DNA of 46,709 bases from Bacteroidales bacterium. Its GTDB lineage: Bacteria; Bacteroidota; Bacteroidia; Bacteroidales; WCHB1-69. Below are positions 31,473-46,527 of the stretch, piece by piece; positions within the stretch are counted from its first letter, which is position 1, and the number at the start of each line of letters is the position of its first letter. A program made the position numbers and the translations under genes. The stretch lies in the NCBI GenBank assembly GCA_017962275.1, contig JAGCVQ010000077.1, forward strand, positions 1 to 46,709, given 5' to 3'. A model generated the notes under the pieces. The model made no database searches, was not told where the DNA came from, and saw nothing but the letters and a program-made list of their open reading frames with translations.

Positions 31473-32537
31473 ATGGCAACCTGGAAAAAGATACGCATAC
31501 AGCGGGAGAATGGCGAAACGGTGGACGCGCAGGCGCCTGTGATAATTTCGGCCAGCCGCAGCACCGACATCCCCGCGTTCTACGCCGACTGGTTTTTCCA
31601 TCGGCTGAAAGTCGGCTATTCGGCGTGGACCAATCCGTTTAACGGGGTAAAGAGTTATGTTTTCTTCCAGAACACTCGGTTCATCGTGTTTTGGTCAAAG
31701 AATCCACGGCCGCTGCTCTCGCATCTCGACGAGTTGGAAGCGCGAGGCATCCATTGCTATGTGCAGTTCACGTTGAATGACTACGAGAAGGAAGGGCTGG
31801 AAAAGGGTGTTCCGCCGATAGGGGAGCGGATTGACACGTTTAAGGAATTGGTGGACAAGTTGGGACTGGGGCGTGTGGTATGGCGTTTCGACCCGCTGAT
31901 GCTGACCGACCAAATCGGCATTGACGATTTGTTGGCAAAGATCGAACGTATTGGCGAACATCTTGTGGGATATACGGAGAAGTTGGTGTTCAGCTACGCC
32001 GACATTGCGGCCTACAAGAAGGTGAAGTCCAACTTGGAGAAAAGCCGCGTGAACTATACGGAATGGACATTACCGCAAATGGAGGAATTCGCCAGACAGC
32101 TTTCGGAACTCAACCGCAAGTGGCATTACCAGCTGGCCACGTGCGGCGAGATGATCGACCTTGAGCGGTACGGCATTCAGCACAACCGCTGCGTGGACGA
32201 CGAGCTGATGATCCGTTTCGCGCACCACGACCTCCTGCTGATGGATTTCCTTGGCGTGGAGGTGAGAACCATTGAAAGTTCCCTTTTCGGCGAAGAAGCG
32301 CTCCCGGAGAATGCAATCAAATTAAGTCCTACCCTGTATGCCATTAAAAAGAAGGACAACCGCGACAAAGGCCAGCGCCACTTCTGCGGCTGCATCGCAA
32401 GCAAGGACATCGGCGAGTACAACACCTGCCCACACCTTTGTGAGTATTGCTACGCGAACACGAGCAAGGAGACGGCGATGAGGAGGTGGGGAGAGCACCA
32501 GAGTGATGGGTTTGGGGAGATGATTGCGGGGAGGTGA
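31473..32537 (+). CDS. DUF1848 protein with radical-SAM-like cysteine motif
   Basis: 354-aa protein of the DUF1848 family. The N-terminal core has IISASRSTDIPAFYADWFFHRLKVG (near 25-49), then FIVFWSKNPRPLL (near 70), HCYVQFTLNDYE (near 94) and VVWRFDPLM (near 130), in the layout of a TIM-barrel with substrate-binding loops. The C-terminus carries clustered cysteines in HFCGCIASKDIGEYNTCPHLCEYCYAN (near 304-330), whose CPHLCEYCY part has the look of an Fe-S radical-SAM cluster motif placed at the end instead of the start. A radical-SAM-like enzyme is therefore a reasonable inference; the substrate is unknown. It has its own promoter and no co-directional partner. Confidence 0.82.
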   Translation: MATWKKIRIQRENGETVDAQAPVIISASRSTDIPAFYADWFFHRLKVGYSAWTNPFNGVKSYVFFQNTRFIVFWSKNPRPLLSHLDELEARGIHCYVQFTLNDYEKEGLEKGVPPIGERIDTFKELVDKLGLGRVVWRFDPLMLTDQIGIDDLLAKIERIGEHLVGYTEKLVFSYADIAAYKKVKSNLEKSRVNYTEWTLPQMEEFARQLSELNRKWHYQLATCGEMIDLERYGIQHNRCVDDELMIRFAHHDLLLMDFLGVEVRTIESSLFGEEALPENAIKLSPTLYAIKKKDNRDKGQRHFCGCIASKDIGEYNTCPHLCEYCYANTSKETAMRRWGEHQSDGFGEMIAGR

Positions 32538-32764: not shown

Positions 32765-34849
32765 TTATGACTCTTTCGTGTTAATTCTCCGTGCTCTTCG
32801 ACTAAATTTCTGAAACTCGGAACTGGTTTTGTCAGCCTCATTGAGTTGCTTTTCAAAGTCCGTATCAGAAACAGCTTTATCGTTGAATGCTAACACAAAA
32901 GCATTTTTCTCTTCTTCCTCATCTATTTCAATATGCAGGTCGTTAGCAAATGCTTCTTTGCGAATCATCATGTATGCGGGCAAATACTCAGGACAGAGCT
33001 TTACCAGATGTCGGCAAGTTTCAAGATTTGAACGACCAAGTTTTTGATTGAGTAGAGATTCAAACAAATACTGTTTCTTGTCAATAGCCATCTTTTCATC
33101 CGAATTAGTTGAAATTTCTCGGATATATTTAGCCATATTGTCAGCTTCTTCATATCGTTCCAAACGATACAATGCTTTAGCTTTGATAAACAAACCTTCA
33201 AGACAGGGACTCTTTTTTTGTGCCGTCTTTTTGTCAAACACAATATCCGAATACCCTATAGCTTCCTCATATCGCCCTCCGTAGAGGCACAACACCGCAT
33301 TCAAAAAGTCACAAGTCATGCTGCAATCTTTTAGCAATGGAACATTCTTTGTGGCATCATGCAGACATTCATCGTCAAGCATCACATCGAACATCCGTTT
33401 GGCTACGAGAGCTGCATTTCTGTAGTCTCCGCTCTTGATTTTGGCAATGACTTGTTTCATGCACACTTGAACAGCACCATCATAGTCCTGATCATTAAAA
33501 CATGTGGCAAACTCCTTGCCGAATTTGTACTCCTCATCTATCATAAGCAGATCGTTGAACGAATTGGCAAAAGCCTTAATCTCTGCATTTTGCTTGATAT
33601 GATACGAGCACAGCTTGTTACTCAAAGTAAGCCCCTCCAACGAACGCATTCGGCTGATGGCCACGTATGCTTGTCCGGGAGCGAAAGTTCCTCGTGTCAA
33701 ATCAAAATGCATACGGTCGAATGTCATTCCCTGTGACTTATGTATGGTAATAGCCCAAGCCAGCTTTAAAGGATATTGTGTGAAACGTCCAACAATTTTC
33801 GATTCAACCTTACGGGCCTCCTCGTTATACACACTTTCCTTGCTTTCCCATACCATTTTTTCCACATTGACTTTTTCGCCATCTTCCAAAACTACAACAA
33901 TCTGGTCATCAGTCAATTTACTTACTATGGCAATGGTGCCGTTAACCACACCTCTTAGATAATCATTGCGACAAAAGATGACCTGCGCGCCGATCTTAAG
34001 TTTCAGATTAACTGGTACAGGAGCATCTTGTATCTTGAATTTTCCATCCAAAACACCTTCATAACAGAATTCCTCTGCTTCTATCTCGTCTAACCTCATC
34101 TCATTAATGCTTTCCGCAATTCGATTATACGCCGTCAGGGTTACCGAATAATCACCCACTTTGTCATCAGAACTTACATGCTCATTGATGATTTCAAAAT
34201 CCTCTTGTTTATTCTCGCCCACACGCATACGGTCCAAGATGTCCAAGAATGGCTGATCTTTCTGACGATAAACCTTCTGAAACTCTATTTTGGGCAAATT
34301 CATTCGTTTCAGCGCGTACGCTTTGTAGAAATAAGGGGTGCCATTCCCATAAAAGTCCCGGAGCATATCTTCATCCGCCGTACCCCGCTTATATACTGGC
34401 GGCAATTGGAACAAATCACCTACAAACACCACCTGCTTGCCGCCAAAAGGCAAATGTGAATAGGTTAATGCCCTGAGGAACCGATCCATGCCATCCACCA
34501 TATCAGCTCTCACCATTGATGCCTCATCAACGATAATGGTATCCGTTTTCTCCAACACACGCCTTTTCTCTAATGACACCTCCATGTGAGAGGCAGGACC
34601 AATAATCTCCAATGGAAAACCGAAAAAAGAATGCATCGTTTGACCTCCGACATTGAGGGCGGCTATACCAGTAGGGGCAAGAACCAGAAAGTTTTTGTTG
34701 ATTTCCTTTTGGATCCTTTTCACAAAAGTGGTTTTGCCAGTACCCGCCTTTCCTGTAATGAAAAGACTGTTGTTGGTGTTTGCCACAATGTCGAAAGCTT
34801 TTTGCTGCTCGAAGTTGGTTGGGTCAAATGTGAATTCTTCTTTCTCCAT
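32765..34849 (-). CDS. Pif1/RecD-like helicase with C-terminal TPR-like region
   Basis: 694-aa superfamily 1 DNA helicase. Walker A is TGKAGTGKTT (residues 32-41), Walker B IIVDEASMV (near 106), motif III FVGDLFQLPPV (near 141), and the late motif WAITIHKSQGMTFDR (near 371-385) followed by YVAISRMRSLEGL, the Pif1/RecD2-type arrangement. After about residue 430 the helicase core ends and a ~200-residue helical region follows with repeating YEEAIGY/ALYRLERYEEADNMA-type units, resembling TPRs, then an acidic stretch (EIDEEEEKNAF) and a basic tail. The helicase-plus-TPR form occurs in Bacteroidota. Own promoter at 34873-34880. Role in repair or in defence cannot be decided; context is accessory. 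Confidence 0.85.
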   Translation of the reverse strand: MEKEEFTFDPTNFEQQKAFDIVANTNNSLFITGKAGTGKTTFVKRIQKEINKNFLVLAPTGIAALNVGGQTMHSFFGFPLEIIGPASHMEVSLEKRRVLEKTDTIIVDEASMVRADMVDGMDRFLRALTYSHLPFGGKQVVFVGDLFQLPPVYKRGTADEDMLRDFYGNGTPYFYKAYALKRMNLPKIEFQKVYRQKDQPFLDILDRMRVGENKQEDFEIINEHVSSDDKVGDYSVTLTAYNRIAESINEMRLDEIEAEEFCYEGVLDGKFKIQDAPVPVNLKLKIGAQVIFCRNDYLRGVVNGTIAIVSKLTDDQIVVVLEDGEKVNVEKMVWESKESVYNEEARKVESKIVGRFTQYPLKLAWAITIHKSQGMTFDRMHFDLTRGTFAPGQAYVAISRMRSLEGLTLSNKLCSYHIKQNAEIKAFANSFNDLLMIDEEYKFGKEFATCFNDQDYDGAVQVCMKQVIAKIKSGDYRNAALVAKRMFDVMLDDECLHDATKNVPLLKDCSMTCDFLNAVLCLYGGRYEEAIGYSDIVFDKKTAQKKSPCLEGLFIKAKALYRLERYEEADNMAKYIREISTNSDEKMAIDKKQYLFESLLNQKLGRSNLETCRHLVKLCPEYLPAYMMIRKEAFANDLHIEIDEEEEKNAFVLAFNDKAVSDTDFEKQLNEADKTSSEFQKFSRRARRINTKES

Positions 34850-34872: not shown

Positions 34873-34880
34873 CAAAAGTA
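34873..34880 (-). promoter_or_regulatory. -7 promoter element of the helicase gene
   Basis: The minus strand reads TACTTTTG followed by CATCC, 23 bases before the start codon. It separates the helicase from the five-gene operon that ends at 35050. Confidence 0.6.
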
Positions 34881-35049: not shown

Positions 35050-35991
35050 TCATAAATCAAACAAAGTCGTTCTATTTAACACAAAGCTACATATTTCTTC
35101 GATTGATTTTGTTGAAATCACACGCACGCTTGACTCTTTTAACAATTCTCTATTGAGGTCAAATTGGGCATTATCGTGATCTATTTCGGGGTTGTACATC
35201 ACATATCTTTGTCTATTGTATTCTTTTGCTTTTCCCATAGCATGGCGAGAGCCACTGTCGTTTCCTTGGTCGTTTGGAGCATAGCTCGCAGCCAAACAAA
35301 TTGCCTTACAAAACATTGCTTGTAATCTATCTCTTTTTACATACCGATCAACAAGTTCTTTCTTCGATGATGCTTCTTTGTAATATTCAGTTACAAGTAA
35401 TCCGTTTTTTGATACAATTTCATCTGATAATAATCTATTCTCAGAAGGGATAATGTTCTTTAATGTGCCCGGCAAAATAGCTATAGTTTTACCATTAGAA
35501 TCAAGTGCTTGCTTATGTGAAATGCTATCACAGCCTTTAGCAAGACCACTTACAATATTACATCCTCCTGTAACTAAAGCCTTCACAAAAGCACGTTCTC
35601 TTTCTTCTATGCCATGTTCCGGGTTAAGCACCCCAACAACAGCAACATTCTTATCCATTTTATGAAGTAATGATATGTTCCCTTTATAAAACAATACGAC
35701 AGGTCTTTCTCCTCCCTTAACCGTATCAGGAACAACAGGGAAATCTTCATCGCCATACGCCACCACACCGTCTAAACTACATTCTTCCGAATTAAATAAC
35801 GTCTCTATGTCATTTCTTTTCCGAAGGAATATTTCGTATGATAGTTCGAAGTTTTTTGTTGCATAAGATATCATTTTCCAAATTGTGCGCAAATCTTGGC
35901 CTCTTCGAATGTTTTTATAAATCCAAGCAGGACCAATACCTTTACATTCTAACGCAGTAAGAACATTTAATGCATTCTCAGTGTATATCAT
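35050..35991 (-). CDS. DprA/Smf-like (SLOG-fold) protein, last gene of five-gene operon
   Basis: 313-aa protein with a DprA-type Rossmann domain. Key blocks: VVAYGDEDFPVV (near 76-87), VVLFYKGNISLL (near 98), VAVVGVLNPEHGIEERERAF (near 116), the core NIVSGLAKGCDSISHKQAL (near 145-163), and KTIAILPGTLKNIIPSENRLL (near 168-188). These match the nucleotide- or ssDNA-binding face of DprA, but the N-terminus is not the usual HhH-SAM region in full and the C-terminal ~100 residues differ, so this is a DprA paralogue and not the housekeeping transformation protein. It starts two bases after the PRTase gene stop and so is co-translated with it. In the described ShosTA defence system a DprA-like protein is the antitoxin of a PRTase-domain toxin (from memory), a suggestive parallel. 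Confidence 0.75.
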   Translation of the reverse strand: MIYTENALNVLTALECKGIGPAWIYKNIRRGQDLRTIWKMISYATKNFELSYEIFLRKRNDIETLFNSEECSLDGVVAYGDEDFPVVPDTVKGGERPVVLFYKGNISLLHKMDKNVAVVGVLNPEHGIEERERAFVKALVTGGCNIVSGLAKGCDSISHKQALDSNGKTIAILPGTLKNIIPSENRLLSDEIVSKNGLLVTEYYKEASSKKELVDRYVKRDRLQAMFCKAICLAASYAPNDQGNDSGSRHAMGKAKEYNRQRYVMYNPEIDHDNAQFDLNRELLKESSVRVISTKSIEEICSFVLNRTTLFDL

Positions 35992-35993
35992 TT

Positions 35994-36929
35994 CTATTCC
36001 TCCTTTTTTAATGTTTTTGCCACACTATAAAACGTTAAAGTCTTTGGTTTATTATCCATTATGGTTTGCAAAGAATCTTCATCTATGTTAACTCCATATG
36101 TATATATGTCATCTATGAAAAGTATATTTTTCCCTTCTATTTCTGAAGAGACATTGCAAGTTTCTTTTATTATCCCAGGATAAATAACTCCTTTTTCTCC
36201 CAAATGTGTTGTGGGTGTATCGGTATGGCGAATAATGTAATTACAGCCATTCTCAAAACCTTCATTTACATGTTCATCACACCAATCAGATACAGTTTTT
36301 CGTAATTGTTGATACCATTCTTCCTGATTTGCTTTTGCTCTAGGCGCAAGAACAATTGTGAGTGTGTTACAATTAAGTCTTTCTTTTATTGTTGGGAGAT
36401 TTGTACTCAAAACAGCTTTTAATTCAGAAGCTGCTTGCTCTAACTGAGATGACGGTGTGTTCCCAAACTGATTCTTTAATACATTTAGATAATCAGGATT
36501 CCCTTCCGCGTGATAAGATTTATAATCCGTATGATAAAAGCCTGTTATTTCTGATTGTAAAAAGTTGTTATTTTTTATCTTAAACTCATTTAATTCACTA
36601 GGTTCCACTCTGATTTTATAAAATATTCTCTTATGTCTAATATCCAATTTCGTATCAATGAAAATATTATCATTTTCCATATAGTTTGAATTGAAAGCAT
36701 TCAGCCTTCGTTCTGGAGGGGTGATTTCTGAAAACTTCGCCCAAATTTCGCCAATGTGAAATCCGCATCCAAACTGATTGTCATACGTTGAAACCCTTTG
36801 TACACCATGGCCTTTGGCAAAATGATGTAGGATCGCAGATTCAATCGTCACATACGGTTGACCTTCAATGTTTATAGAATATTTTTTTACGAGTTTGTCA
36901 AACTTCTCTTGAGATAGTGTTATTGCCAT
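35994..36929 (-). CDS. Phosphoribosyltransferase-domain protein
   Basis: 311-aa protein. The C-terminal part has a type I phosphoribosyltransferase fold: the PRPP-binding loop is ILFIDDIYTYGVNIDED (near 269-285; acidic pair D273-D274), preceded by a LTIVLAPRAKA strand (near 190-200). The usual TTG of the loop is TYG. The N-terminal ~170 residues are a separate domain I do not recognise (GHGVQRVSTYDNQFGCGFHIGEIWAKFSE near 40-68; DIRHKRIFYKIRVEP near 95). The gene lies five bases after the HAD gene stop and two bases before the DprA-like gene. PRTase plus DprA recalls ComF/DprA and ShosTA partnerships. A toxin acting on nucleotide pools or RNA is possible but unproven. Confidence 0.7.
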   Translation of the reverse strand: MAITLSQEKFDKLVKKYSINIEGQPYVTIESAILHHFAKGHGVQRVSTYDNQFGCGFHIGEIWAKFSEITPPERRLNAFNSNYMENDNIFIDTKLDIRHKRIFYKIRVEPSELNEFKIKNNNFLQSEITGFYHTDYKSYHAEGNPDYLNVLKNQFGNTPSSQLEQAASELKAVLSTNLPTIKERLNCNTLTIVLAPRAKANQEEWYQQLRKTVSDWCDEHVNEGFENGCNYIIRHTDTPTTHLGEKGVIYPGIIKETCNVSSEIEGKNILFIDDIYTYGVNIDEDSLQTIMDNKPKTLTFYSVAKTLKKEE

Positions 36930-36934
36930 GTTAT

Positions 36935-37477
36935 TTATGATTTATAGATATTTCTTTGAGGAACTCCAAAATATATAGCATCTGCTATTGCTTTTTTATC
37001 ATTTTCAAACAATATGATCTTATCCGAAGAATAATGCTGTTCATTAATCAAATAGTCAAATTTGGATTTGCCCAAGTAACTGTCCCTATAGTAAACATTG
37101 TCAAATAGCGATGTTATCCCATAATATTCAAGCACCGACTTCGCTCTTTCTCGTCTAGCGTATGTCAACAACACATTGTGCGTGTTTTTTAGGTGTTGCA
37201 ATATAAAAAGAGCAGGTAAAGGTTGTGTACAAACTAAGTATTCGGTAAACAATTTTTCTTTTTTAACAATTATTTCTTGAAGGATGTTGTCACTTACATT
37301 AATTCTATTATTCAATGAATCTCTTGTGATACGACAGTTATCAATGTCGATAGTTATTCCTGAAACATCGTAAACAGACCGTTGGTATGCCATACTATTT
37401 GCTTTGTCCGTATTGACAAGAGTGCCATCAAGGTCAAATGCTATAATGTAATTTTCTATGTCCAAAAATTTTGCCAT
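36935..37477 (-). CDS. HAD-superfamily phosphatase
   Basis: 180-aa HAD hydrolase. Motif I is IIAFDLDGTLVNTDKA (nucleophile D15 and D17). Motif II is the threonine in VLLTYARRERAK (near 104). The motif III lysine is in LGKSKFDYL (near 133), and motif IV is IILFENDKKAIADA (near 153), with an END instead of the more common GDxxxD. A helical cap of about 60 residues sits after motif I, as in phosphoglycolate-phosphatase-like or 5'-nucleotidase-like members. All catalytic positions appear present. It is the third gene of the five-gene operon, between an unknown protein and the PRTase, so a phosphorylated sugar or nucleotide linked to PRPP chemistry is a plausible substrate (inference). Confidence 0.8.
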   Translation of the reverse strand: MAKFLDIENYIIAFDLDGTLVNTDKANSMAYQRSVYDVSGITIDIDNCRITRDSLNNRINVSDNILQEIIVKKEKLFTEYLVCTQPLPALFILQHLKNTHNVLLTYARRERAKSVLEYYGITSLFDNVYYRDSYLGKSKFDYLINEQHYSSDKIILFENDKKAIADAIYFGVPQRNIYKS

Positions 37478-37510
37478 TTTATTATTTTCAACAATTCTAT
37501 AAAAGTAGTG

Positions 37511-38428
37511 TTAATCTACCAAATCAAACAATCGGTTTATTCTATCACCCCAAAAGTTCAGAGTTCGATCATTTATTTCTTTTGTTTTTTTTATCCCAAG
37601 ATTATACTCAGTTTTTTGGCCTATTGCAGTTGGGTAAAGTAACTTTATTGCTGTGCTGTTTTGTGGTTTGCCCTTGTTGTTAAATAAGGCGAATCCCGCT
37701 CCAACAGTTATCAGAAAGGTGTTAGAGATAATAAATCTGTCATGGAGAGTAGTATAACAAAGGGTAAACAATGTGTTATTAACAAAGTTCTGCGAACGAA
37801 CAGATAACACGGCATCCTTAATGTCGTTAAATATGGAATCACCATTAGAGTTTATCTCACTAAAAACTGAAAGATGAAACGGCATGTCGGTTTCATAAGG
37901 CAACAACAAATCCAGAATCTCTTTTAATGCGGGATTCATGTACCCTTTGTTGCATAAATATTTGTCATTTATAATCAGCGCATTACAGTGTTTATTTGAA
38001 AATACTGGTTCAAATAATTTATGCTTCCAACCTTGAAAATACTTTTGGTCTTCGTCTATTTCTTGTACATGAATTTCGAAAACATCATTCTCATTGGAGT
38101 ACTGATTGTTATTCAAGACAATAATTCCTCTCGAATTTGTCTTCTCATCACAAAACAAAGTATCTTTATCAAATAAATAAATTGATGACAATGCTACAAT
38201 ATCGTCAGATTCAATGTAATCTGCAATGTTTTTGTTCCAAAACAAACGTCCTCCTGTTTCGTTATAAACATCGGATAAATCAGGATCTGTACCAACATCG
38301 TTTTTCTGAAAATCGGTATATATTGCAGAATGGGAACGAATTATTCTATCAATAAAAACATATCGTTCTCTGCCTGCTTTTATTTTCATCCAAAATTTTT
38401 TCTCTAGAAAAATCACCCCTTCTTTCAT
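37511..38428 (-). CDS. Unknown 305-aa protein of the five-gene operon
   Basis: I do not recognise the family. It has no signal peptide or membrane segment. The sequence starts MKEGVIFLEKKFW and is rich in Asn/Asp/Ile/Phe. Two features stand out: KHCNALIINDKYLCNKG (near 144-160), and THDR-like TTLHDRFIISNTFLITVGAGFALF (near 226-249), where an HDR followed by a hydrophobic strand and a G-x-G recalls the half-motif of phospholipase-D-like or MIT-C-type domains. The resemblance is weak. It sits five bases after the DUF3696 ATPase stop, so it is likely the direct partner or effector of that ATPase, and 33 bases before the HAD gene. It is A+T-rich like its neighbours. Confidence 0.6.
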   Translation of the reverse strand: MKEGVIFLEKKFWMKIKAGRERYVFIDRIIRSHSAIYTDFQKNDVGTDPDLSDVYNETGGRLFWNKNIADYIESDDIVALSSIYLFDKDTLFCDEKTNSRGIIVLNNNQYSNENDVFEIHVQEIDEDQKYFQGWKHKLFEPVFSNKHCNALIINDKYLCNKGYMNPALKEILDLLLPYETDMPFHLSVFSEINSNGDSIFNDIKDAVLSVRSQNFVNNTLFTLCYTTLHDRFIISNTFLITVGAGFALFNNKGKPQNSTAIKLLYPTAIGQKTEYNLGIKKTKEINDRTLNFWGDRINRLFDLVD

Positions 38429-38433
38429 TGTCT

Positions 38434-40056
38434 CTATTTATTTAGAGTAAACAATTTTCTCGAAAGACTTCCTGCTTCATCAAAGAAGCCGTCTCCAAAA
38501 CTACTTCCAAGCCTTCCGTCTTCCATAATTTCTATTTTTCGATTGGTCGAAACCCCATTTTCATCCTTTTCCACATAGTTGAGCGAAACATCATTGGGCG
38601 AAAGCGCATGTTTTTTGTCGGCTATCATCACCTGAAGTTTACGTATCAGATATTCGCTATGGGTCTCAATAATGAATTGGATATTGTACTTTTGGTATGC
38701 TTCCACAAACATTTCGGCCAGCAAAGACTGATATTTAGGATGGAGATGAACTTCTGGCTCTTCAACACAAATTACTTGAGGGTATCTTTCAAAATAGAGA
38801 TTTTTATGATCTGGTTTGCCGTCATGCCATGGTGTTTGAGGATTTTTCTCGTCGGCTGGCTTAATAGAATTGTCTATTAACAAAAGCAAAGAAACGAGTT
38901 GGGTGATACCATACCCTTCGTCCGCAAGCAATTGTTTTTCACCATTTCTTTCAATAAACACTTTAATGCGTCCTTCATCATCGCCTGTTGTAAAAATTTT
39001 ACAACCATTGCCAAGGAATTCTTCCAGCCAATGGTTCACAAAACTGCCTGGCTTATGATAATATGGATGAAAAATATCGGACCACTCTTTGTCGATTATT
39101 TTCGCACTATTAAAATCAAACAAAGCTTTGCTCATTTTATTGCTATCCTCAACAGAATAAGTGCGCCTAATTGCTGCTGAACCCGAATCAATATATTCCA
39201 CGTTTTCAGTAAACATAGGGGAAAACACTTCATCTACAACCAATTCTAAATAATGTTCTATTATTTGTCTTTCTGGGTATTGTGTCGTCAAAAGATCCTC
39301 AAACTCTTCATCAGTCTTGCAGTAAGGTTTCCAGTCCTTTATTTCCTTATCTCTATTATAAATCCACTGATCCCAGTCAGATAGTTGTCTGATATTGTAC
39401 ATTTCAACATTGATGTCGCTTACTTGTATTTGTGACACAATGTCTTTTAACTCTTGGGAATAATGAGCATATTTGTTTTGAGATTCCTCGTCATTTCTTT
39501 TTATTAATAAATCAACTACTTGAACTAATTGTTGGTATTTACTTACCAAAGAGAAAGCGTTGAAATTTTGAATAATAGAATCTATGTGTTTGTTGTAGTG
39601 TTCTTCGTCTTCCATTTCCCAAAGGGCTGTGTTCTCCTCAAAGATTATTGTTCCATCAGTTTTTTCTATGGAGTACTTATACAAATAACCATCTTTAAGA
39701 TCGTCGTTCTTCTTAGACTTGAAAAAACGCTTGACACGAACATCTTCTTGAAGATAGTTAGACCATACTTTATATGCAAATACTATCTCATTGTCAGCCG
39801 CGTTTTTATGAAGCACCTTCTCATAGTTACCAAGTCTGAGGTCTTTTGTGTAGAGTTTTAATGAGGGCGATACGACTCTTCTGTGATTAGGCATTCGGCT
39901 TAATAGCACAAGTGCTTTTGCCATAGAACTCTTGCCGGCACTATTGCATCCGGTCAAAATGGTGATAGGGGCGAGTTCAAAATCGGCACCTTCTTCGCCA
40001 AAAGAGCGGAAGTTTTTCAGACTGAAAACCGGGTTCATGTTTTTACTATTGTTCAT
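38434..40056 (-). CDS. DUF3696-type AAA (ABC/OLD-like) ATPase, first gene of the operon
   Basis: 540-aa ATPase of the SMC/ABC-like group. Walker A is TGCNSAGKSSMAKAL (residues 35-49). After a ~300-residue helical insertion come a signature-like LLADEGYGITQLVSLLLLI (near 375-393), Walker B VICVEEPEVHLHPKYQSLLAEMF (near 428-450), and the switch FIIETHSEYLIRKL (near 458-471). The end, LGSSFGDGFFDEAGSLSRKLF, matches the DUF3696 C-terminus. Related ATPases serve as sensors in OLD, Septu, PARIS (AriA) and similar defences. No nuclease domain is fused to it, so it would need a partner, and the next gene is five bases away. Own promoter at 40080-40087. The start could also be the second in-frame Met (residue 7). 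Confidence 0.85.
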   Translation of the reverse strand: MNNSKNMNPVFSLKNFRSFGEEGADFELAPITILTGCNSAGKSSMAKALVLLSRMPNHRRVVSPSLKLYTKDLRLGNYEKVLHKNAADNEIVFAYKVWSNYLQEDVRVKRFFKSKKNDDLKDGYLYKYSIEKTDGTIIFEENTALWEMEDEEHYNKHIDSIIQNFNAFSLVSKYQQLVQVVDLLIKRNDEESQNKYAHYSQELKDIVSQIQVSDINVEMYNIRQLSDWDQWIYNRDKEIKDWKPYCKTDEEFEDLLTTQYPERQIIEHYLELVVDEVFSPMFTENVEYIDSGSAAIRRTYSVEDSNKMSKALFDFNSAKIIDKEWSDIFHPYYHKPGSFVNHWLEEFLGNGCKIFTTGDDEGRIKVFIERNGEKQLLADEGYGITQLVSLLLLIDNSIKPADEKNPQTPWHDGKPDHKNLYFERYPQVICVEEPEVHLHPKYQSLLAEMFVEAYQKYNIQFIIETHSEYLIRKLQVMIADKKHALSPNDVSLNYVEKDENGVSTNRKIEIMEDGRLGSSFGDGFFDEAGSLSRKLFTLNK

Positions 40057-40079
40057 ATTCTTCTCTGTTTTTTCGTTTG

Positions 40080-40087
40080 CAAAAATA
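40080..40087 (-). promoter_or_regulatory. -7 promoter element of the five-gene operon
   Basis: The minus strand reads TATTTTTG followed by CAAAC, about 24 bases before the ATPase start codon. No other -7 element was found inside the five genes' short gaps, so they are likely one transcript. Confidence 0.65.
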
Positions 40088-40104
40088 CAACCGCCTCACG
40101 CAAC

Positions 40105-41340
40105 TTATTTGCGCGCACCCTCTTTTTTCCTTTCCTCCAGCTCTTTTACCGTGCGCTCCACCACTTCTTCTAACTGATATGTGGATACGCCAAGTGGCTT
40201 GTTGATGTCGCGCAGAGACCACTCCACAACGGTTTTGTCAGTTGATTTGCAAATAAGCAAACCCACAGTTGGATTGTCACCGTCGCCACGCATTAACTCG
40301 TCGATAGCGGTCACATAGAAATTCAGTTTGCCGGCAAATTCGGGGATGAATTTCACCACCTTCAATTCGATGACCACATAACGGTGCTGGGGTATGTGAT
40401 AGAACAACAAGTCGGGAAAGAATGTCTGTCCTCCGGGCATTTGCAACTCCATCTGACGACCTACATACGAAAAACCCTGACCTAACTCCATCAGAAACCG
40501 TGTGACATTGGACACCAACGCATCTTCAAGGTCCTGTTCGTCGTACTCTTCTTTCATAGTCAGGAATTCGAAATGATACGGGTCTTTCAGCAATTCTTTG
40601 GCCAACTGGCTCTGTGGTGCGGGTAGCGTATGTTCGAAGTTGGTGATGGCGGCACCTTGACTTCCGAACAGATTGGCTGCCACTTGGTCTTCAAGTCTGC
40701 TGCGACTCCAGCCCTCTTCCACAACCCTGTTAATGTAGAACAGAGCTTCATCAAGAGATTGGCATTTGGAGATGATATGGACATGGTGAAACCAGGGTAT
40801 TCTGCCAAAGATCTCAGGCATCTCTAATTGGCCACTCGGTTGGTGGCTTTTTTCGTCAGCAAGATGCTGACAAATTGCAGCACCTAATTCGTCAGCAGGT
40901 TGCTGACGAATTGCAGCACTTAATTCGTCAGCAACCTGCTGACGAATTACAACATCTTGTTTATCACCAGTTTTAGGAGCAAGAGCGACATTAAATTCGT
41001 CACCAGCTTGGTGACGAATTGCAACTCTATCACTATAAAAGGCATACCAACGTTTCATGTATTTAAGGTTGGTTACAGAGAACCCCGTTTCGTTAGGAAA
41101 TGCAGTTTTCAAATCAAGGGACAACTGGTTAAAGAAACCATTTCCCCATTTGCTTTCTGCACGAAGTTCAACAATGTCTCGTCCCAGACTCCAATAAAAC
41201 TCAAGCATGGCGGTGTTTACATGGACGGACGCCTTTACTTGGCTTTGGCGAAAACGCTGCTTGGTGTCAGCCATCCATTGTACGTAACCTTCGTCGGCGG
41301 TCATCTTCTCTCGGAATGTAAATGTCGGTTTTTCAGTCAT
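40105..41340 (-). CDS. PDDEXK nuclease-domain protein, DUF1016/YhcG family
   Basis: 411-aa protein. The N-terminal DUF1016 half begins near residue 18 (YVQWMADTKQRFRQSQVKASVHVNTAMLEFYWSLGRDI) and includes FSVTNLKYMKRWYAFY (near 85-100). The C-terminal PDDEXK nuclease domain has FFPDLLFYHIPQH (D310) and VVIELKVVKF (E325, K327), all catalytic residues present. Between them, about residues 107-165, lies a low-complexity linker with the repeating phrase RQQVADEL/RQQPADEL, made by a set of short DNA palindromes (40831-41018). The family is linked to mobile DNA and often found beside restriction or defence genes. Own promoter at 41364-41371. Parts of a near-identical second copy lie at 44380-44850. 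Confidence 0.87.
   Translation of the reverse strand: MTEKPTFTFREKMTADEGYVQWMADTKQRFRQSQVKASVHVNTAMLEFYWSLGRDIVELRAESKWGNGFFNQLSLDLKTAFPNETGFSVTNLKYMKRWYAFYSDRVAIRHQAGDEFNVALAPKTGDKQDVVIRQQVADELSAAIRQQPADELGAAICQHLADEKSHQPSGQLEMPEIFGRIPWFHHVHIISKCQSLDEALFYINRVVEEGWSRSRLEDQVAANLFGSQGAAITNFEHTLPAPQSQLAKELLKDPYHFEFLTMKEEYDEQDLEDALVSNVTRFLMELGQGFSYVGRQMELQMPGGQTFFPDLLFYHIPQHRYVVIELKVVKFIPEFAGKLNFYVTAIDELMRGDGDNPTVGLLICKSTDKTVVEWSLRDINKPLGVSTYQLEEVVERTVKELEERKKEGARK
40831..41018. repeat. Array of in-frame palindromes in the DUF1016 linker
   Basis: Hairpins lie at 40831-40847 (GCCAC/GTGGC ends), 40852-40873 (CGTCAGCA-AGA-TGCTGAC), 40888-40910 and 40924-40946 (TTCGTCAGCA/TGCTGACGAA), and 40996-41018 (TTCGTCACCA/TGGTGACGAA). 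In the last one, both arms changed together. Each encodes a variant of RQQVADE. Related units recur at 44758-44776, 44798-44814 and 44819-44841. Confidence 0.85.
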
Positions 41341-41363: not shown

Positions 41364-41371
41364 CAAAAATA
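41364..41371 (-). promoter_or_regulatory. -7 promoter element of the DUF1016 gene
   Basis: The minus strand reads TATTTTTG followed by CATT, 24 bases before the DUF1016 start codon and adjacent to the stop of the WYL gene. Confidence 0.65.
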
Positions 41372-41380
41372 CAAAAAAAA

Positions 41381-42445
41381 CTATATCAAAGATTGATACG
41401 CTTGAAATTGAGCTGCAACATAATTTTTCACTTTCTGTTGGATATAGGCAGGAGAGAGGACAATCAATTCTTTTCCAAACGAAGTCAGTTCACGAATAAG
41501 TTCGTAGTTCTCAATGCATTCGATAGAGAAAAAGCAACCTCCTTTTAGCATTGGGTACTGCTGACGCAACTCTGCCTCTCTCTCGCCACGATAATGGCGT
41601 TGCGATTCGTGTAAGGGCTTGGTGGCGACATAGTTCTTGGAATAGTTGCTTACCCAGAAGATAATGGTTTGCAAAGGTCTGTCGTCATAAAGGGAAACAC
41701 CAATAATATCCTCAAAACGCTCATTCAGGTCTCCCGGATATGGAATATATCGATGACTTGATAGCATATCGAATTGGTCAATCTGATCCAACCTGAAGTT
41801 AAGCAACTTGCCAGTATCCTCCGAAGAGCCAAAAAGATACCATCTGCGATTGTACTCTTTCAACAAGTGTGGATGAATGATTACTTGTTTCACATTGTCG
41901 AGTGTATCAAAGGTATGATAATGGAGTTTCAACACCTGTTGCTGAGAGATAGCGGTAAAAAGCTCTCCGAACAGAGTTGAGTTCTCCAACGGATTCTTGG
42001 TAAAAGAGACGATTTGGCGTTTTTCTTTAAGATTCAAGCTGCCTTTCAGCCTCTCTAATCCGTCAAGATTCGGAAGACCATCAAACTGTCCCAGCAACGA
42101 CAACGCCTCCGAAAGCAGATACTTCTCATCCTCGGTCAATGGTTTCTTAAAGATGGAGAACGATGGGTCTGCATAACGCAAGCATTCTTTTTTCACCGTA
42201 AGATCAGGATTCTTTTTGCTGACCACATCAATTTGATAACGTTCAATATCTGCAAGAAAGGGACCCTCTTTTTCTATATAGTTGATGTCGTATTGGATTG
42301 TGCGAATGCTGGCTTTCATATCCCTCTCTTCTAATTCTTCATTCACCAATTCACATATATCGGCAACAGAATAGTTCCTGTAGCGATTGGCAAGCAACTT
42401 GTCAATAATATAGTATCTCGTGACTGCGTTTTTATTGGCTGGCAT
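41381..42445 (-). CDS. WYL-domain transcriptional regulator
   Basis: 354-aa regulator with an N-terminal helix-turn-helix (ANKNAVTRYYIIDKLLANRYRNYSVADICELVN, residues 3-35, then SIRTIQYDINYIEKEG). The WYL domain begins near 170 (LHYHTFDTLDNVKQVIIHPHLLKEYNRRWYLFGSS), with the R-WYL signature; a WCX-like C-terminal region follows (FGKELIVLSPAYIQQKVKN). WYL domains bind nucleic-acid or nucleotide ligands and often control phage-defence loci. An open frame runs up to 42499, but the -7 element lies at 42476-42483, inside that extension. I therefore choose the start at 42445 (MPANKN). It is read in the same direction as the ATPase/TOPRIM-like pair upstream and may regulate it. Confidence 0.88.
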   Translation of the reverse strand: MPANKNAVTRYYIIDKLLANRYRNYSVADICELVNEELEERDMKASIRTIQYDINYIEKEGPFLADIERYQIDVVSKKNPDLTVKKECLRYADPSFSIFKKPLTEDEKYLLSEALSLLGQFDGLPNLDGLERLKGSLNLKEKRQIVSFTKNPLENSTLFGELFTAISQQQVLKLHYHTFDTLDNVKQVIIHPHLLKEYNRRWYLFGSSEDTGKLLNFRLDQIDQFDMLSSHRYIPYPGDLNERFEDIIGVSLYDDRPLQTIIFWVSNYSKNYVATKPLHESQRHYRGEREAELRQQYPMLKGGCFFSIECIENYELIRELTSFGKELIVLSPAYIQQKVKNYVAAQFQAYQSLI

Positions 42446-42475
42446 ACTGTTTACTGTTTTATCGTTTTTCGCCGG

Positions 42476-42483
42476 CAAAAATA
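42476..42483 (-). promoter_or_regulatory. -7 promoter element deciding the WYL gene start
   Basis: The minus strand reads TATTTTTG followed by CCGGC. It lies downstream of the most upstream possible start codon (42499) and 31 bases before the ATG at 42445, supporting the shorter protein. Confidence 0.65.
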
Positions 42484-42535
42484 CAACTTTCCCGCGCAAT
42501 CTATTTGCACAACCTTCCTGTTTTCCCCATCCCCG

Positions 42536-43087
42536 CTAATTCTCGTATGATTCCTCTAACTTCCTCTTCAGCCCCTCAACCCCATAATAATCCAGTGCAT
42601 AAATGGGAAATGCACTTAGCACGGCGACTTCAGGGCATTTGTGGGTGATGTGTTTCTCCAGTTGCTTTTTAAAAATGTTGCTTTGAGACTCTATTTGTTT
42701 GGGCAAATCATAGACATCATTCACCAAATAGTTCATTCCGTTTTCGGTTTCGTTGTCGAAATAGTCAAGCATCTCCTGTAGTTTGCCATCATCAGCCATG
42801 GTGGAATGGGCATCATAGTCGAAAAACAGATAAACAGATGCAAAACTGTCGCGATTGTACTCGTGCAAGATGGCGGCGTTATCTTCGCTGCGTTCTTTGA
42901 GGAGGTCAACCATGTCGTATGCAAAATCCTCGGCCTTCAGTTGCTTGTATAGCTGGTAAATTTCGGCTTCATAGACACACTTCACCGAAATCCTTTTGCC
43001 GAGAAAATGCTGTTCGAGTTTGTCCACATAGATGGACTCTGCCCGAACACCCTCAAGCACAAACAGATGTAACTCACTATTCGACAT
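42536..43087 (-). CDS. RloB/TOPRIM-like protein, partner of the AAA ATPase
   Basis: 183-aa protein. The start ELHLFVLEGVRAESIYVDKLEQHF (residues 4-27) has the glutamate-led first strand and helix of RloB-type, TOPRIM-like proteins, and SVYLFFDYDAHS (near 101-112) supplies the D-x-D strand. Late, VLSAFPIYALDYYGVEGLKRKL forms the last strand and helix. I place the start at 43087 because this ATG overlaps the last codons and stop of the ATPase gene by 11 bases (CCATGTCGAATAG), a clear coupling; the frame is open to 43129. With the ATPase it resembles two-gene systems such as RloA/RloB or PARIS (AriA/AriB), whose second protein is a TOPRIM-type nuclease. Nuclease activity is inferred only. Confidence 0.7.
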   Translation of the reverse strand: MSNSELHLFVLEGVRAESIYVDKLEQHFLGKRISVKCVYEAEIYQLYKQLKAEDFAYDMVDLLKERSEDNAAILHEYNRDSFASVYLFFDYDAHSTMADDGKLQEMLDYFDNETENGMNYLVNDVYDLPKQIESQSNIFKKQLEKHITHKCPEVAVLSAFPIYALDYYGVEGLKRKLEESYEN

Positions 43088-44180
43088 GGAAGGCATTGGC
43101 TCTATAGATTTTCTCGATGTTATGGCCAAATCTCAACTCTTTCTCTGTGCAAGCCTGAAGCGGCTTTATCTTGTTGTTCTGAAGGATGAAGTTGCAGTCG
43201 GGACGTAGCAGGTCGTTCGTCATCAGGTAGGTGTTGTGGGACGAAGTGAAGACTTGGCAATCCATGTTGAACAGCTGCTTGCACACCTCAAACGAGAGTC
43301 TGAAATGATAGAAAGCGTCGAATTCGTCGATGAAAACAAACGATGCTGCCGTCATTCTCCTAATCCAAACATAGAGCAATTCAAGTGCTTTCGTGCCTGT
43401 TGAGGCGATAGACAGGAATGGAATCGTGTTGTCGCCGATTTGGCAATATAAGATTTTGTCGCCTTCTTTGGAAGAGGCGAACTTGAACTCCTGTTCGCTC
43501 ACGTTGGCCAGGAACCGTGAGAAATCTTCGATGCATTGGTTTTGGATGATAAACTCTTCCAACCCGAAACTCGATGTTTCAAGACCAATAAACTCGCGGC
43601 TGTCTAAATTCTTGAACCACAGCATGGAATTGACGAACATAATCAGTTTTACAATATAATGGTCCTGCGGCAAAGGATAAGAGGCTGTCAGGAAGTTGAT
43701 GACAGAAATGCTATTCACGTTCTGCTTGAAATTCTCCTTGACCGTAGCGTCAATCTTGAATTGTCCGTCATCGATTTCAAAAACGGTGTTGTCTCTTTTG
43801 AACACTTGCTTGCGGTTCACCATCAGCGATTCAGCGACGAGCAATCCGACGGAATTCTTCGCATAGCTGTATTCCAAGATGTCATTGTCAAACTTGAACA
43901 CATATTCAAATTCCACGGGAGCGTTTGGATTGCCTGTATAGACGAAATTTGAATAGTAATCCGGTTTCTTCCATTTTGCGGAAAGATGATTCTCGATATC
44001 AAAAATGGCCAGCGCAAAGTTGGATTTTCCTGATCCATTGGGCCCATAAACAATACCATTCTTGATAATGCCATCCTTTATGGCGTTTTTGTTGAACTCA
44101 TAATTGCTTGGATGCGACAAGTCCCATTCTATCCTTTTGGCAAACCCGCGGAAGTTTTTTACGGCAAATTTAACTAGCAT
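43077..44180 (-). CDS. AAA15/21-type ABC ATPase of a two-gene defence-like module
   Basis: 367-aa ATPase. Residues 1-16 (MLVKFAVKNFRGFAKR) form the first strand typical of AAA15/21 and RecF-like proteins; Walker A is YGPNGSGKSNFALAI (residues 45-59). Walker B is SFVFIDEFDAFYHFRLSFEV (near 280-299) and the switch strand VFTSSHNTYLMTNDLL (near 307-322), with His replacing the usual T-H-S order (SSHNT). No nuclease domain is fused. The gene has its own promoter at 44206-44213 and overlaps the RloB-like gene by 11 bases, so both are made together. It is likely the sensor or motor part of an anti-phage module, by analogy with RloA and AriA (inference). Confidence 0.83.
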   Translation of the reverse strand: MLVKFAVKNFRGFAKRIEWDLSHPSNYEFNKNAIKDGIIKNGIVYGPNGSGKSNFALAIFDIENHLSAKWKKPDYYSNFVYTGNPNAPVEFEYVFKFDNDILEYSYAKNSVGLLVAESLMVNRKQVFKRDNTVFEIDDGQFKIDATVKENFKQNVNSISVINFLTASYPLPQDHYIVKLIMFVNSMLWFKNLDSREFIGLETSSFGLEEFIIQNQCIEDFSRFLANVSEQEFKFASSKEGDKILYCQIGDNTIPFLSIASTGTKALELLYVWIRRMTAASFVFIDEFDAFYHFRLSFEVCKQLFNMDCQVFTSSHNTYLMTNDLLRPDCNFILQNNKIKPLQACTEKELRFGHNIEKIYRANAFHVE

Positions 44181-44331: not shown

Positions 44332-44379
44332 TACTATAGTAATTTTGTGAAATGCAAAAGCCTAACCGCCTCACGCAAC

Positions 44380-44712
44380 TTATTTGCGCACTCCCTCTTT
44401 TTTCCTTTCCTCCAATTCTTTTACCGTGCGTTCCACCACTTCTTCTAACTGGTATGTGGATACGCCAAGGGGCTTGTTGATGTCGCGCAGAGACCACTCC
44501 ACAACGGTTTTGTCAGTTGATTTGCAAATAAGCAATCCCACGGTCGGATTGTCACCTTCGCTACGCATTAACTCGTCGATAGCTGTCACATAGAAATTCG
44601 ATTTGCAAGCAACTCGGGAATTGATGTCACGACCTTCAATTCGATGACAACATAACGGTGTTGGTGTATGAGATAGAATGAGGCCATTGTGTTCTGCCAA
44701 ATACTCAGACAT
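44380..44712 (-). pseudogene. Broken DUF1016/PDDEXK copy, C-terminal part
   Basis: The last ~75 codons (FYVTAIDELMRSEGDNPTVGLLI to KEGVRK) are nearly identical to the end of the intact DUF1016 protein at 40105. Upstream, the nuclease core is frameshifted: the codons for VVIELKV are still there near 44628-44650, but in another frame. The first residues of the open frame (MSEYLAEHNG) are not DUF1016 sequence. A large part of the nuclease and N-terminal domains is missing. It lies on the promoter side of the ATPase module and just before the IS element. A protein from the open frame is possible but would lack the catalytic core. Confidence 0.75.
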
Positions 44713-44970: not shown

Positions 44971-46527
44971 ATGGCAAAGATACAATTTAAATCATATCCC
45001 CAAGGGCAGACGGTACTTTTTCCTTCAGATTTAGGTGAGAACATCCCCGAGAACGACCCCGTGCGCATCGTCAGCCGCATAGTTGACGGCCTGAACATAG
45101 ACTCCCTGATAGAGACCTACGAGGCGTTCGGCTGCCCACCCTATCATCCCCGAATGCTGCTGAAGGTGGTATTCTACGCGTACATGAACAACGTGTACTC
45201 GTGCCGCCGCATAGCACGCGAGATGCTCCATGACATATACTACATGTGGCTGTCGGGCAACGAGCACCCCTCGTACAGCACGATCAACCGCTTCCGCAGC
45301 GAGCACGTGAAGGATCAGGTCAACAGCCTGTTCGTGCAGGTGGTGAAGAGCTTGGTGGAGATGGGGGTGCTGAGCCTCGACGTGCAGTATATCGACGGCA
45401 CGAAGGTGGAGTCCGTGGCCAACAAGTACACGTTCGTCTGGCGCAAGACGGTGGAGCGGAACAAGTCGAAGCTGGAGAAGAAGATCCTCGGCGTGCTGCG
45501 GCAGATAGAGGAAGGCATCGCCCAAGACAACAGCGAGGAGCCTGAGTCCGAGCCCGTCGCCATAGACTCGGCCTCACTGCAGGGTATCGTGGACAAAATC
45601 AACGCGGAGAACGCCAGGATGCCGGAAGGCACGAAAGAGGAGAAAAAGGCGAAGAGGGAGCGTGAGAAAGTAGCCAAGGAGTTGGGCAAGATGCAGGAGA
45701 AACAGGCCGAGTACGAGCGTCATCTGGAGACGATGGGCGAGCGCAACAGCTACTCCAAGACAGACCCCGACGCGACGTTCATGCGGATGAAGGAGGACGC
45801 GATGAACAACGGGCAGACCAAGCCGGGCTACAACCTGCAGATAGGGACCAGCTGTCAGTTCATCACCAACTACGCCTTGTATTGGAACCCCACGGACACG
45901 ACCACGATGCCCGACTTCCTGTCGCGCCACGAGCAGGCCTACGGCGCCTTCCCGAAGAAGGCGGTGGCGGACTCGGGCTACGGCAGCGAGGAGAACTACG
46001 AGTTCATGGAAGCCAACGATGTGGAGGCCTTCGTCAAGTACCCGCTCTTCCACAAGGAGCAGCACCGCCCGTTCCTGCAGGACATCTCCAGGCCGGAGAA
46101 CCTCCACTACAACGAGGAAGAGGACTATTACGTGTGCCCCATCGGGCAGCGGATGCACAACATCGGCACCTACCGCAGAAAGAACGACAACGGATACACG
46201 AGCTACATCACGAACTACGAGGCGCAGAACTGCGGGGGATGCCCGCTCAGGTGCGTATGCTACAAAGGGCAACAGGGCAACAGGATCCTCAGCGTGAACC
46301 ATCATCTGAGAAAATACAAGCAACGGGCGAGGGAGAAGCTGCTCGGCGAGGAGGGCCTGATGCACAGGAGCAAGCGGCCGATAGAGCCGGAGGCCGTCTT
46401 CGGTCAGATGAAGTTCAACAAGCAGTACAAGCGGTTCAGGCACCGGGGAAAGGACAAGGTCAACATGGATTTTGGCCTCTTCGCCATTGCCTTCAACATC
46501 CAAAAATATGCCCGGATAACGGCATAA
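44971..46527 (+). CDS. IS1182-family DDE transposase
   Basis: 518-aa transposase, full length for the family. The N-terminal DUF772-like region includes DLGENIPENDPVRIVSRIVDG (near 20-40), YHPRMLLKVVFYAYMNNVYSCRRIA (near 58-82) and WLSGNEHPSYSTINRFR (near 93-109). The catalytic core shows YIDGTKVES (D142), a coiled basic/acidic insertion near 165-265, ADSGYGSEENYEFM (near 331), and the C-terminal VFGQMKFNKQYKRFRHRG with the glutamate-bearing helix just before it (RPIEPEAVFG). Paired cysteines CGGCPLRCVCY (near 428) form the usual late zinc-like cluster. No frameshift or stop, so it is probably active. Codon usage is much more G/C-rich than in the neighbouring defence genes. Confidence 0.95.
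   Translation: MAKIQFKSYPQGQTVLFPSDLGENIPENDPVRIVSRIVDGLNIDSLIETYEAFGCPPYHPRMLLKVVFYAYMNNVYSCRRIAREMLHDIYYMWLSGNEHPSYSTINRFRSEHVKDQVNSLFVQVVKSLVEMGVLSLDVQYIDGTKVESVANKYTFVWRKTVERNKSKLEKKILGVLRQIEEGIAQDNSEEPESEPVAIDSASLQGIVDKINAENARMPEGTKEEKKAKREREKVAKELGKMQEKQAEYERHLETMGERNSYSKTDPDATFMRMKEDAMNNGQTKPGYNLQIGTSCQFITNYALYWNPTDTTTMPDFLSRHEQAYGAFPKKAVADSGYGSEENYEFMEANDVEAFVKYPLFHKEQHRPFLQDISRPENLHYNEEEDYYVCPIGQRMHNIGTYRRKNDNGYTSYITNYEAQNCGGCPLRCVCYKGQQGNRILSVNHHLRKYKQRAREKLLGEEGLMHRSKRPIEPEAVFGQMKFNKQYKRFRHRGKDKVNMDFGLFAIAFNIQKYARITA

Follow-up and report, generated by a model that had tools for sequence, protein, structure and literature searches.

We conclude that the five minus-strand genes described here quite probably make up two defence modules that share one promoter in a modular island. 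Module A, an ATPase gene followed by a gene for a protein with a phospholipase-D (PLD) fold, resembles an OLD-type pair. Module B, which encodes a HAD-family hydrolase, a PRTase-like protein and a DprA-like protein, resembles a ShosTA system whose toxin is split. The analysis shows the gene order, the separability of the two modules and their separate histories, conserved active sites in the HAD protein and the PRTase-like protein, and a predicted PLD fold. Most likely, the two modules came to adjoin each other within a gene-swapping defence island.

Organization of the locus

The window (the whole stretch of 46,709 nucleotides of Bacteroidales contig JAGCVQ010000077.1 that was analysed) contains the following features.

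42536..44180, minus strand, second ATPase pair of two genes (PDC-M12A/B, AbiLi-like), lying upstream of WYL (PADLOC, 3e-134 and 4.1e-52)
41381..42499, minus strand, WYL-domain regulator (Pfam WYL, 6.7e-12)
40105..41340, minus strand, DUF1016/YhcG PDDEXK nuclease-like gene with its own -7 element at 41371 (Pfam YhcG_C, 2.2e-54; PADLOC PDC-S02, 2.2e-133)
40080..40087, minus strand, TAttTTTG, putative -7 promoter element for the five genes (sequence motif, 31 nt ahead of the first ATG)
38434..40056, minus strand, module A gene 1, 540-aa ABC/OLD-type ATPase with DUF3696 at its C terminus (AAA_15, 1.9e-23; DUF3696, 4.7e-8)
37511..38428, minus strand, module A gene 2, 305-aa protein, C-terminal half with a PLD fold (predicted model; MITD1 match)
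36935..37477, minus strand, module B gene 1, 180-aa HAD-family hydrolase (HAD_2, 2.2e-6, above the Pfam cut-off)
35994..36929, minus strand, module B gene 2, 311-aa PRTase-like protein (PRPP-type motif, alignments, hhalign to ShosT)
35050..35991, minus strand, module B gene 3, DprA-like (ShosA-like) protein, 313 aa (DNA_processg_A, 1.1e-35, above cut-off; PADLOC ShosA, 6.3e-49)
32765..34849, minus strand, PIF1-like helicase beyond the trio, with its own -7 element at 34880 (Pfam PIF1, 5.4e-35)

The ORF coordinates bear out the layout that a sequence-only reading of this DNA had described, five genes on the minus strand with gaps of 5, 33, 5 and 2 bases in order. The A+T-richer composition that it reported also holds (G+C is 33-37% over 35-40 kb versus 50-59% in most of the initial 31 kb), and the single -7 element that it placed ahead of the first gene is present. 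TAttTTTG was called against what we take to be the -7 consensus. The 411-aa gene and the PIF1 gene each have the motif at this same distance from their start. The HAD, PRTase and DprA genes have no -7 motif in the 150 nt preceding their starts, and the 305-aa gene has one 75 nt ahead of it, within the ATPase gene. Because the minus strand from 32 to 45 kb carries 12 such motifs and 5.3 are expected from base composition alone, the motif and its spacing are more than chance, if not proof. One transcript may extend over all five genes. Read from the sequence, the probable true start of the WYL gene is ATG 42445, 38 nt behind a -7 element at 42483.

The five-gene set is not unique to the window genome, because locus L007, apparently on a contig of a different species of the same genus (G282), carries the same eight genes, from WYL to PIF1, in the same order. 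We postulate that the WYL regulator, the ATPase-PLD pair and PIF1 form the backbone of this modular island.

An ATPase paired with a PLD-fold protein

Both the AAA_15 and the DUF3696 matches of the ATPase exceed the Pfam cut-off. No TOPRIM family was found in the ATPase or its 305-aa partner (Pfam, E values up to 1). The partner, left as an unknown by the sequence-only reading, can now be placed. A predicted model gives it a PLD fold over approximately residues 118-305 and matches the restriction nuclease SauUSI structurally, and human MITD1, to which this C-terminal half is related (E = 4.5e-6), is its sole sequence match in the PDB. The usual PLD (HKD) motif is HxK-x4-D. This canonical form is absent from the 305-aa protein, which has H229-x-R231-x4-N236 instead, and PLD-type catalysis is unsure because of this departure. 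Nevertheless, H is kept in 24 of 24 homologues, R in 24 of 24 and N in 23 of 24, and such retention points to an active site, given that the nine homologues compared share 15-29% identity with the window protein.

It is possible, though not the reading that we favor, that the partner is a non-catalytic sensor that binds membranes or nucleic acid, as in MITD1, and not an effector. By its title, Hadders 2012 (cited in PMC9477494) reports that the PLD fold of MITD1 binds membranes. This binding, the HxR-x4-N form of the motif and the lone PDB sequence match to MITD1 speak for a sensor. Against it stand the retention of H, R and N in such distant homologues and the predicted structural match to SauUSI.

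The ATPase gene lies directly ahead of the gene for the 305-aa homologue, on the same strand, in 34 of 34 mapped loci. L006 (G089), G319 and the three weakest Bacteroidales matches (G045, G232 and G013) were set aside, and L083 and L084 were rejected as homologues of the 305-aa protein, having no profile match. The pair matches 19 of 393 sampled Bacteroidales genomes. Searches of phages and plasmids with tblastn found no relatives of the 305-aa protein, and scans of viral contigs found none of it or of the PRTase. Given this distribution and fixed order, and since the second gene has no match in PADLOC (three members scanned), the pair is a concrete candidate defence family, for which we found no name.

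The HAD, PRTase and DprA-like trio

The trio recurs by itself across many phyla. Among 43 loci, DprA is found in 42 and HAD in 34; the sole locus without DprA (L030) ends at a contig edge, and two of the nine without a detectable HAD (L018 and L043) begin at contig ends. Duplicates, recognized by the length of their contigs and the genes on them, were dropped (L003 and L086, from the contig of L028; L096, equal to L007; and L095, equal to L043), and L086 still stands as a row in one tabulation of loci. A PRTase match is present in 5 of 104 genomes of the family, the window's own included. The trio is also present on a Synechocystis plasmid; tblastn of plasmids with a second PRTase gave nothing beyond that same plasmid, and tblastn of phages with the Synechocystis PRTase gave no match.

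The catalytic residues of the HAD protein are intact, with D15, D17, T19 and E158 in 31 of 31 sequences, T105 in 30 and K139 in 29. The PRTase-like gene comprises a catalytic part (35994-36590) and an extra N-terminal domain (36591-36929) that is clearly common only to the window, L007 and L008. The motif DD-x-YT-xx-VNIDED is well conserved, with D273, D274 and T277 in 39 of 39 homologues. Assignment to the PRTases rests on this PRPP-type motif, weak profile matches and the company that the gene keeps: the PRTase family of Pfam does not match the 311-aa protein, a PDB profile search with it gave nothing significant, and it is weakly ComF-like (TIGR00201, E = 0.072). In a tree of 18 of the 42 trio DprAs and eight DprAs of the household type, the two sets separate, the trio proteins grouping as a clade with support of 100/100.

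The trio is ShosTA-like by its gene content, with the toxin apparently split into two genes, because the ShosT annotated in phage PfAC02a (L066) combines a HAD and a PRTase domain, both scoring above cut-off, in a single chain adjoined by a DprA protein. In the P2_4C9 protein (L068; PADLOC ShosT, 973 bits), both domains also lie in one chain, each below cut-off. The window HAD profile aligns to ShosT with a probability of 92% (E = 5.4e-7), and the PRTase with a probability of 76% (hhalign, E = 2.2e-5, over 47 columns only). The sequence-only reading was right that PRTase and DprA together point to ShosTA. The HAD brings no further novelty to that arrangement, because annotated Pf ShosT already contains this domain. 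The PADLOC ShosT match of the window PRTase (8.4e-7, 27 bits) was rejected as proof of membership because this model finds a match almost everywhere, frequently with a higher score: in 102 of the 104 genomes of the family, where scores reach 57 bits, and in 13 of 14 controls. These matches are presumably household PRTases such as ComF. The window trio differs from ShosTA of P2-like and Pf phages in having HAD and PRTase as separate ORFs, a distant PRTase sequence with the extra N-terminal domain, and DprAs of a separate clade, although the defence-island or mobile context is shared. Because HAD and PRTase are separate proteins here, their roles can be tested singly. The ShosTA mechanism is treated in a review passage that cites Pu et al. 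2025 (PMC12593503).

One system or two

The sequence-only reading had proposed a single system in which the ATPase senses infection for the PRTase, with two systems in tandem as its fallback, and had suggested a genome-neighbourhood search in which finding the genes usually apart would argue against one system. In that search the ATPase pair and the trio are separate at most of the other loci examined, and the fallback fits best. The ATPase-PLD pair is present in 3 of 43 trio loci (40 lack the 305-aa family in the stretch examined), and the trio in 3 of 34 pair loci (31 lack it in the stretch examined). After L007 the closest relative is L008 (PRTase identity 67%), which has the trio and the PRTase N-terminal domain without the pair. 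Conversely, L137, from the same family, has WYL-YhcG-ATPase-PLD-PIF1 without the trio, with WYL 90% and PIF1 89% identical to the window; L119 has the same arrangement, and the trio-less congener L138 has an ATPase 87% identical to that of the window. The genomes of L137 and L138 (G299 and G280) are outside the five with a PRTase match. Explaining which rows carry the trio takes 3 changes on the ATPase tree, with the 7 other labelled rows as the reference; the corresponding number for the pair on the PRTase tree is 2. An apparent clade of trio-linked ATPases (3 of 4 rows) was lost with more sampling, leaving 3 of 13 rows in a wider, unstarred clade.

These co-occurrence counts, the changes on the ATPase tree and the identities at L138 and L007 reject an obligate five-gene system. 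An integrated five-gene system, with the ATPase and the PLD-fold protein as infection sensors that license a split ShosTA toxin, is unlikely. It would account for the tight gaps and the lone -7 element ahead of the first gene, for the order kept in L007, and for the PRTase N-terminal domain diverging between the window and L007 alongside the ATPase (49% identical) and its partner while HAD (97%) and DprA (100%) stay nearly the same. ATPase-PLD pairs also lie repeatedly near PRTase-DprA systems: the pair has come together with the trio on separate occasions, in window/L007 and in L033, with different trio lineages, and in L116 a PsyrTA pair adjoins the ATPase-PLD pair. However, the rarity of co-occurrence, the 87% identical ATPase of L138 and the pairless L008 count against it. 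The repeated joining could reflect a preference instead of chance. A doubtful extension would make the pair an unnamed family that joins type I restriction-modification, PsyrTA, split ShosTA and PIF1, often behind WYL, and that prefers PRTase-DprA toxins, docks on the PRTase N-terminal domain and guards or triggers the toxin.

Still less probable is that the trio handles nucleotides or DNA, like ComFC and DprA in transformation, and is not a toxin-antitoxin. ComFC (PMC9005727) and DprA (PMC9122126) are both required to handle incoming ssDNA, and the PRTase is weakly ComF-like. Nevertheless, the trio is patchily distributed in the family and occurs on one plasmid, its DprAs cluster away from the household type, and Pf ShosT has the same HAD and PRTase make-up.

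Proposed activities and related systems

From this analysis we infer the enzymatic steps, trigger, toxicity and defensive role of each module. Module A would work like PARIS-type pairs: the PLD-fold protein would be kept in check by the ATPase until the latter senses a phage product and frees or activates its partner, which would then attack nucleic acid or membrane lipid. In module B, the PRTase and HAD would, when triggered, disturb the PRPP/purine-nucleotide pool, and the DprA-like protein would restrain or counter their toxicity, at DNA.

Several known systems share parts of this design. PARIS (AriA/AriB) and other OLD-type pairs likewise have an ABC ATPase gene directly followed by an effector-like gene, but the window partner has a PLD fold and not TOPRIM, and the window ATPase has DUF3696 (the PARIS mechanism is discussed in part of PMC12409363). 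The top PADLOC match of the ATPase is NsnB (1.2e-44), a likeness to Menshen. The other Menshen partners are NsnA and NsnC. The PADLOC models, whether or not both NsnA and NsnC are modelled, gave no other Nsn match for the five genes (for the ATPase, among the best 25 of 109). Unlike MITD1 and its C-terminal domain (MIT_C), the window protein is bacterial and ATPase-paired, and no MIT domain was found in it. PsyrTA/RqlHI also combines a PRTase toxin with a DprA-like partner, but PMC4670107 describes that toxin as a RecQ-type helicase fused to PRTase, whereas no helicase above the Pfam cut-off is present in the window 311-aa protein. A literature search of limited depth turned up no account of either a split ShosTA or this ATPase-PLD combination. 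Lastly, genes, and perhaps single domains, are exchanged between congeners at this locus.

Probably two modules in tandem

We conclude that the five genes most likely constitute two modules in tandem, a pair (ATPase and 305-aa protein) and a trio (HAD, PRTase and DprA-like protein):

38434-40056, minus strand, DUF3696 ATPase
37511-38428, minus strand, 305-aa protein, predicted phospholipase D (PLD) fold
36935-37477, minus strand, HAD protein
35994-36929, minus strand, PRTase
35050-35991, minus strand, DprA-like protein

The sequence-only reading had favored one five-gene system, with two tandem systems as its fallback, and it is the fallback that fits best. The 305-aa family occurs in 3 of 43 PRTase loci (the window, L007 and L033), a co-occurrence that is no fair measure of enrichment because the window was picked for its two modules and the PRTase search led to L007 and L033. 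The locus is of interest as a ShosTA-like variant and for modular exchange, not as a new five-gene system.

The earlier description of the genes themselves was borne out by an ORF and composition check: five genes, gaps of 5, 33, 5 and 2 bases, and low G+C. The motif TAttTTTG, presumably a -7 element, starts 31 nt upstream of the ATPase ATG. It has identical spacing ahead of the YhcG-like gene and the PIF1-like helicase gene, and lies 38 nt upstream of the probable start of the WYL regulator. One copy is 75 nt upstream of the 305-aa gene, within the ATPase gene, and none is found within 150 nt upstream of the HAD, PRTase and DprA starts. The element before the ATPase and its absence before the last three genes indicate that the five genes are probably a single transcription unit.

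The trio and its resemblance to ShosTA

The HAD-PRTase-DprA trio is a module. A PRTase search of genome contigs turned up 39 loci, spread over Bacteroidota, Pseudomonadota, Chloroflexota, Spirochaetota, Planctomycetota, Fusobacteriota, Bacillota and Campylobacterota; adding the window, a Synechocystis plasmid and two further genomes makes 43 separate loci. Of these, 42 have DprA (the exception, L030, stops at a contig edge) and 34 have HAD, and 7 of the 9 loci lacking HAD have space for it. HAD follows DprA in L025 and L040. The trio is rare and patchily distributed, its PRTase turning up in 2 of 247 genomes from the order and 5 of 104 from the family, own genome counted in each. PRTase and/or DprA genes are duplicated in L045, L036 and L040.

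Judging from sequence comparisons, the trio is most likely a split, ShosTA-like variant. The annotated ShosT of Pf phage PfAC02a carries both HAD and PRTase domains on one chain, each scoring above cut-off, and ShosA comes next. In P2_4C9, whose pair matches PADLOC ShosT (973 bits) and ShosA (765 bits), both domains are again on one chain, each under its Pfam cut-off. The top PADLOC match of the window DprA is ShosA. Aligned to ShosT, the HAD profile reaches 92% probability; the PRTase profile (37 of 39 rows) aligns over 47 columns only, with 76% probability. In a tree that took in 18 of the 42 trio DprAs, these form one clade (support 100/100) separate from eight household-type DprAs. The nearest outsider is the Pf ShosA, though the support is weak (84/72) and the branches are long; the P2 ShosA is placed elsewhere.

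Published accounts report that a DprA and PRTase pair encoded by P2 protects against T7 and lambda (PMC9122126), that ShosT is both a PRTase and a pyrophosphatase and upsets the purine pool, that ShosA binds DNA (both in a review, PMC12593503), and that the PRTase domain of RqlH becomes toxic when RqlI, its DprA-like partner, is missing (PMC4670107). From these families, the PRTase and HAD, once released, would most likely drain or alter PRPP or purine nucleotides, and the DprA-like protein would restrain or repair their effect. Similarly, the ATPase would most likely control the PLD-fold protein, by analogy with PARIS, in which AriA is described as controlling AriB (PMC12409363).

The ATPase-PLD pair

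The ATPase and its 305-aa partner are also a module, a candidate for which we found no name. Homologues of the 305-aa protein give matches in 19 of 393 Bacteroidales genomes, a count that takes in the own genome and the three weakest matches. For every one of the 34 homologues mapped, the gene immediately ahead, on the same strand, encodes a DUF3696-type ATPase, and in 9 the two genes overlap by 4 bases. A WYL regulator is within four genes in 20 of the 34 and a PIF1-like helicase in 9. Other neighbors differ between loci and include type I restriction-modification genes (L085, L117, L124, L125), AAA_14/DUF4143 proteins, a Schlafen-type protein, and UvrD- or NERD-type helicases.

At L085, L117, L124 and L125, the WYL gene and pair precede hsdM and adjoining type I genes, and the ATPases of these loci, L077 and L139 form one well-supported clade. 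An early tree had also hinted at a single clade of trio-linked ATPases, which wider sampling broke. At L116:5733-8913, PsyrT (849 bits) and PsyrA (257 bits) lie directly upstream of an ATPase-PLD pair.

Probable exchange within the island

Comparison with related loci looks like gene and domain exchange within a defense island rather than inheritance of one five-gene unit. L137, a locus of the same family, retains WYL (90% identity), YhcG, ATPase (59%), the 305-aa protein (33%) and PIF1 (89%) and has no trio; the WYL-YhcG-ATPase stretch matches the window DNA at 78%. L119 shares this gene order and likewise lacks the trio. In L138, a congener without the trio, the ATPase is 87% identical and its partner only 27%; the partner seems to have been swapped as a unit. 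The DNA match to L138 over window 38473-40125 is 90% identical and stops near the ATPase gene end. The trio label requires three changes on the ATPase tree, counted against seven other labeled rows, and the pair label requires two on the PRTase tree.

L007 has the same eight genes from WYL to PIF1 as the window. Its HAD (97%), DprA (100%) and PRTase beyond residue ~180 (100%) nearly equal those of the window, versus 49% for the ATPase, 31% for the 305-aa protein, 29% for YhcG, 69% for WYL, and 27-63% per 30 residues for PRTase residues 1-180. DNA identity is about 56% in window 36500-36898 (the PRTase N-terminal part), 97% in HAD and 99-100% in the remaining PRTase and DprA, a mosaic pattern suggesting that just one domain was exchanged. 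It may instead stem from mis-assembly, since both contigs are drafts.

Some results nevertheless favor the other, unlikely reading of a single system. Pair and trio have joined more than once, as the window/L007 and L033 trios belong to different lineages, and at L116 a different PRTase-DprA system, PsyrTA, adjoins a pair. The PRTase N-terminal domain, unlike the catalytic part, diverges alongside the ATPase and 305-aa protein, which could mean matching partners. However, L008 has this domain and no pair. We retain two tandem modules as the most likely arrangement.

Other features of the island are:

31473-32537, DUF1848 gene flanking PIF1
42536-44180, two-gene defense candidate (PDC-M12A/B, with an AbiLi-like ATPase) lying upstream of WYL
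44353-44679, probably what is left of another YhcG gene, with 85% DNA identity to a part of the L137 YhcG/DUF1016 gene
44971-46527, DDE transposase (DUF772/DDE_Tnp_1_6), at the island edge

The YhcG remnant lies outside the intact YhcG gene. A gene 74% identical to the DUF1848 gene is found in reverse orientation just behind the pair in L138 (8401-9465), and its PADLOC match is RTasDUF1848.
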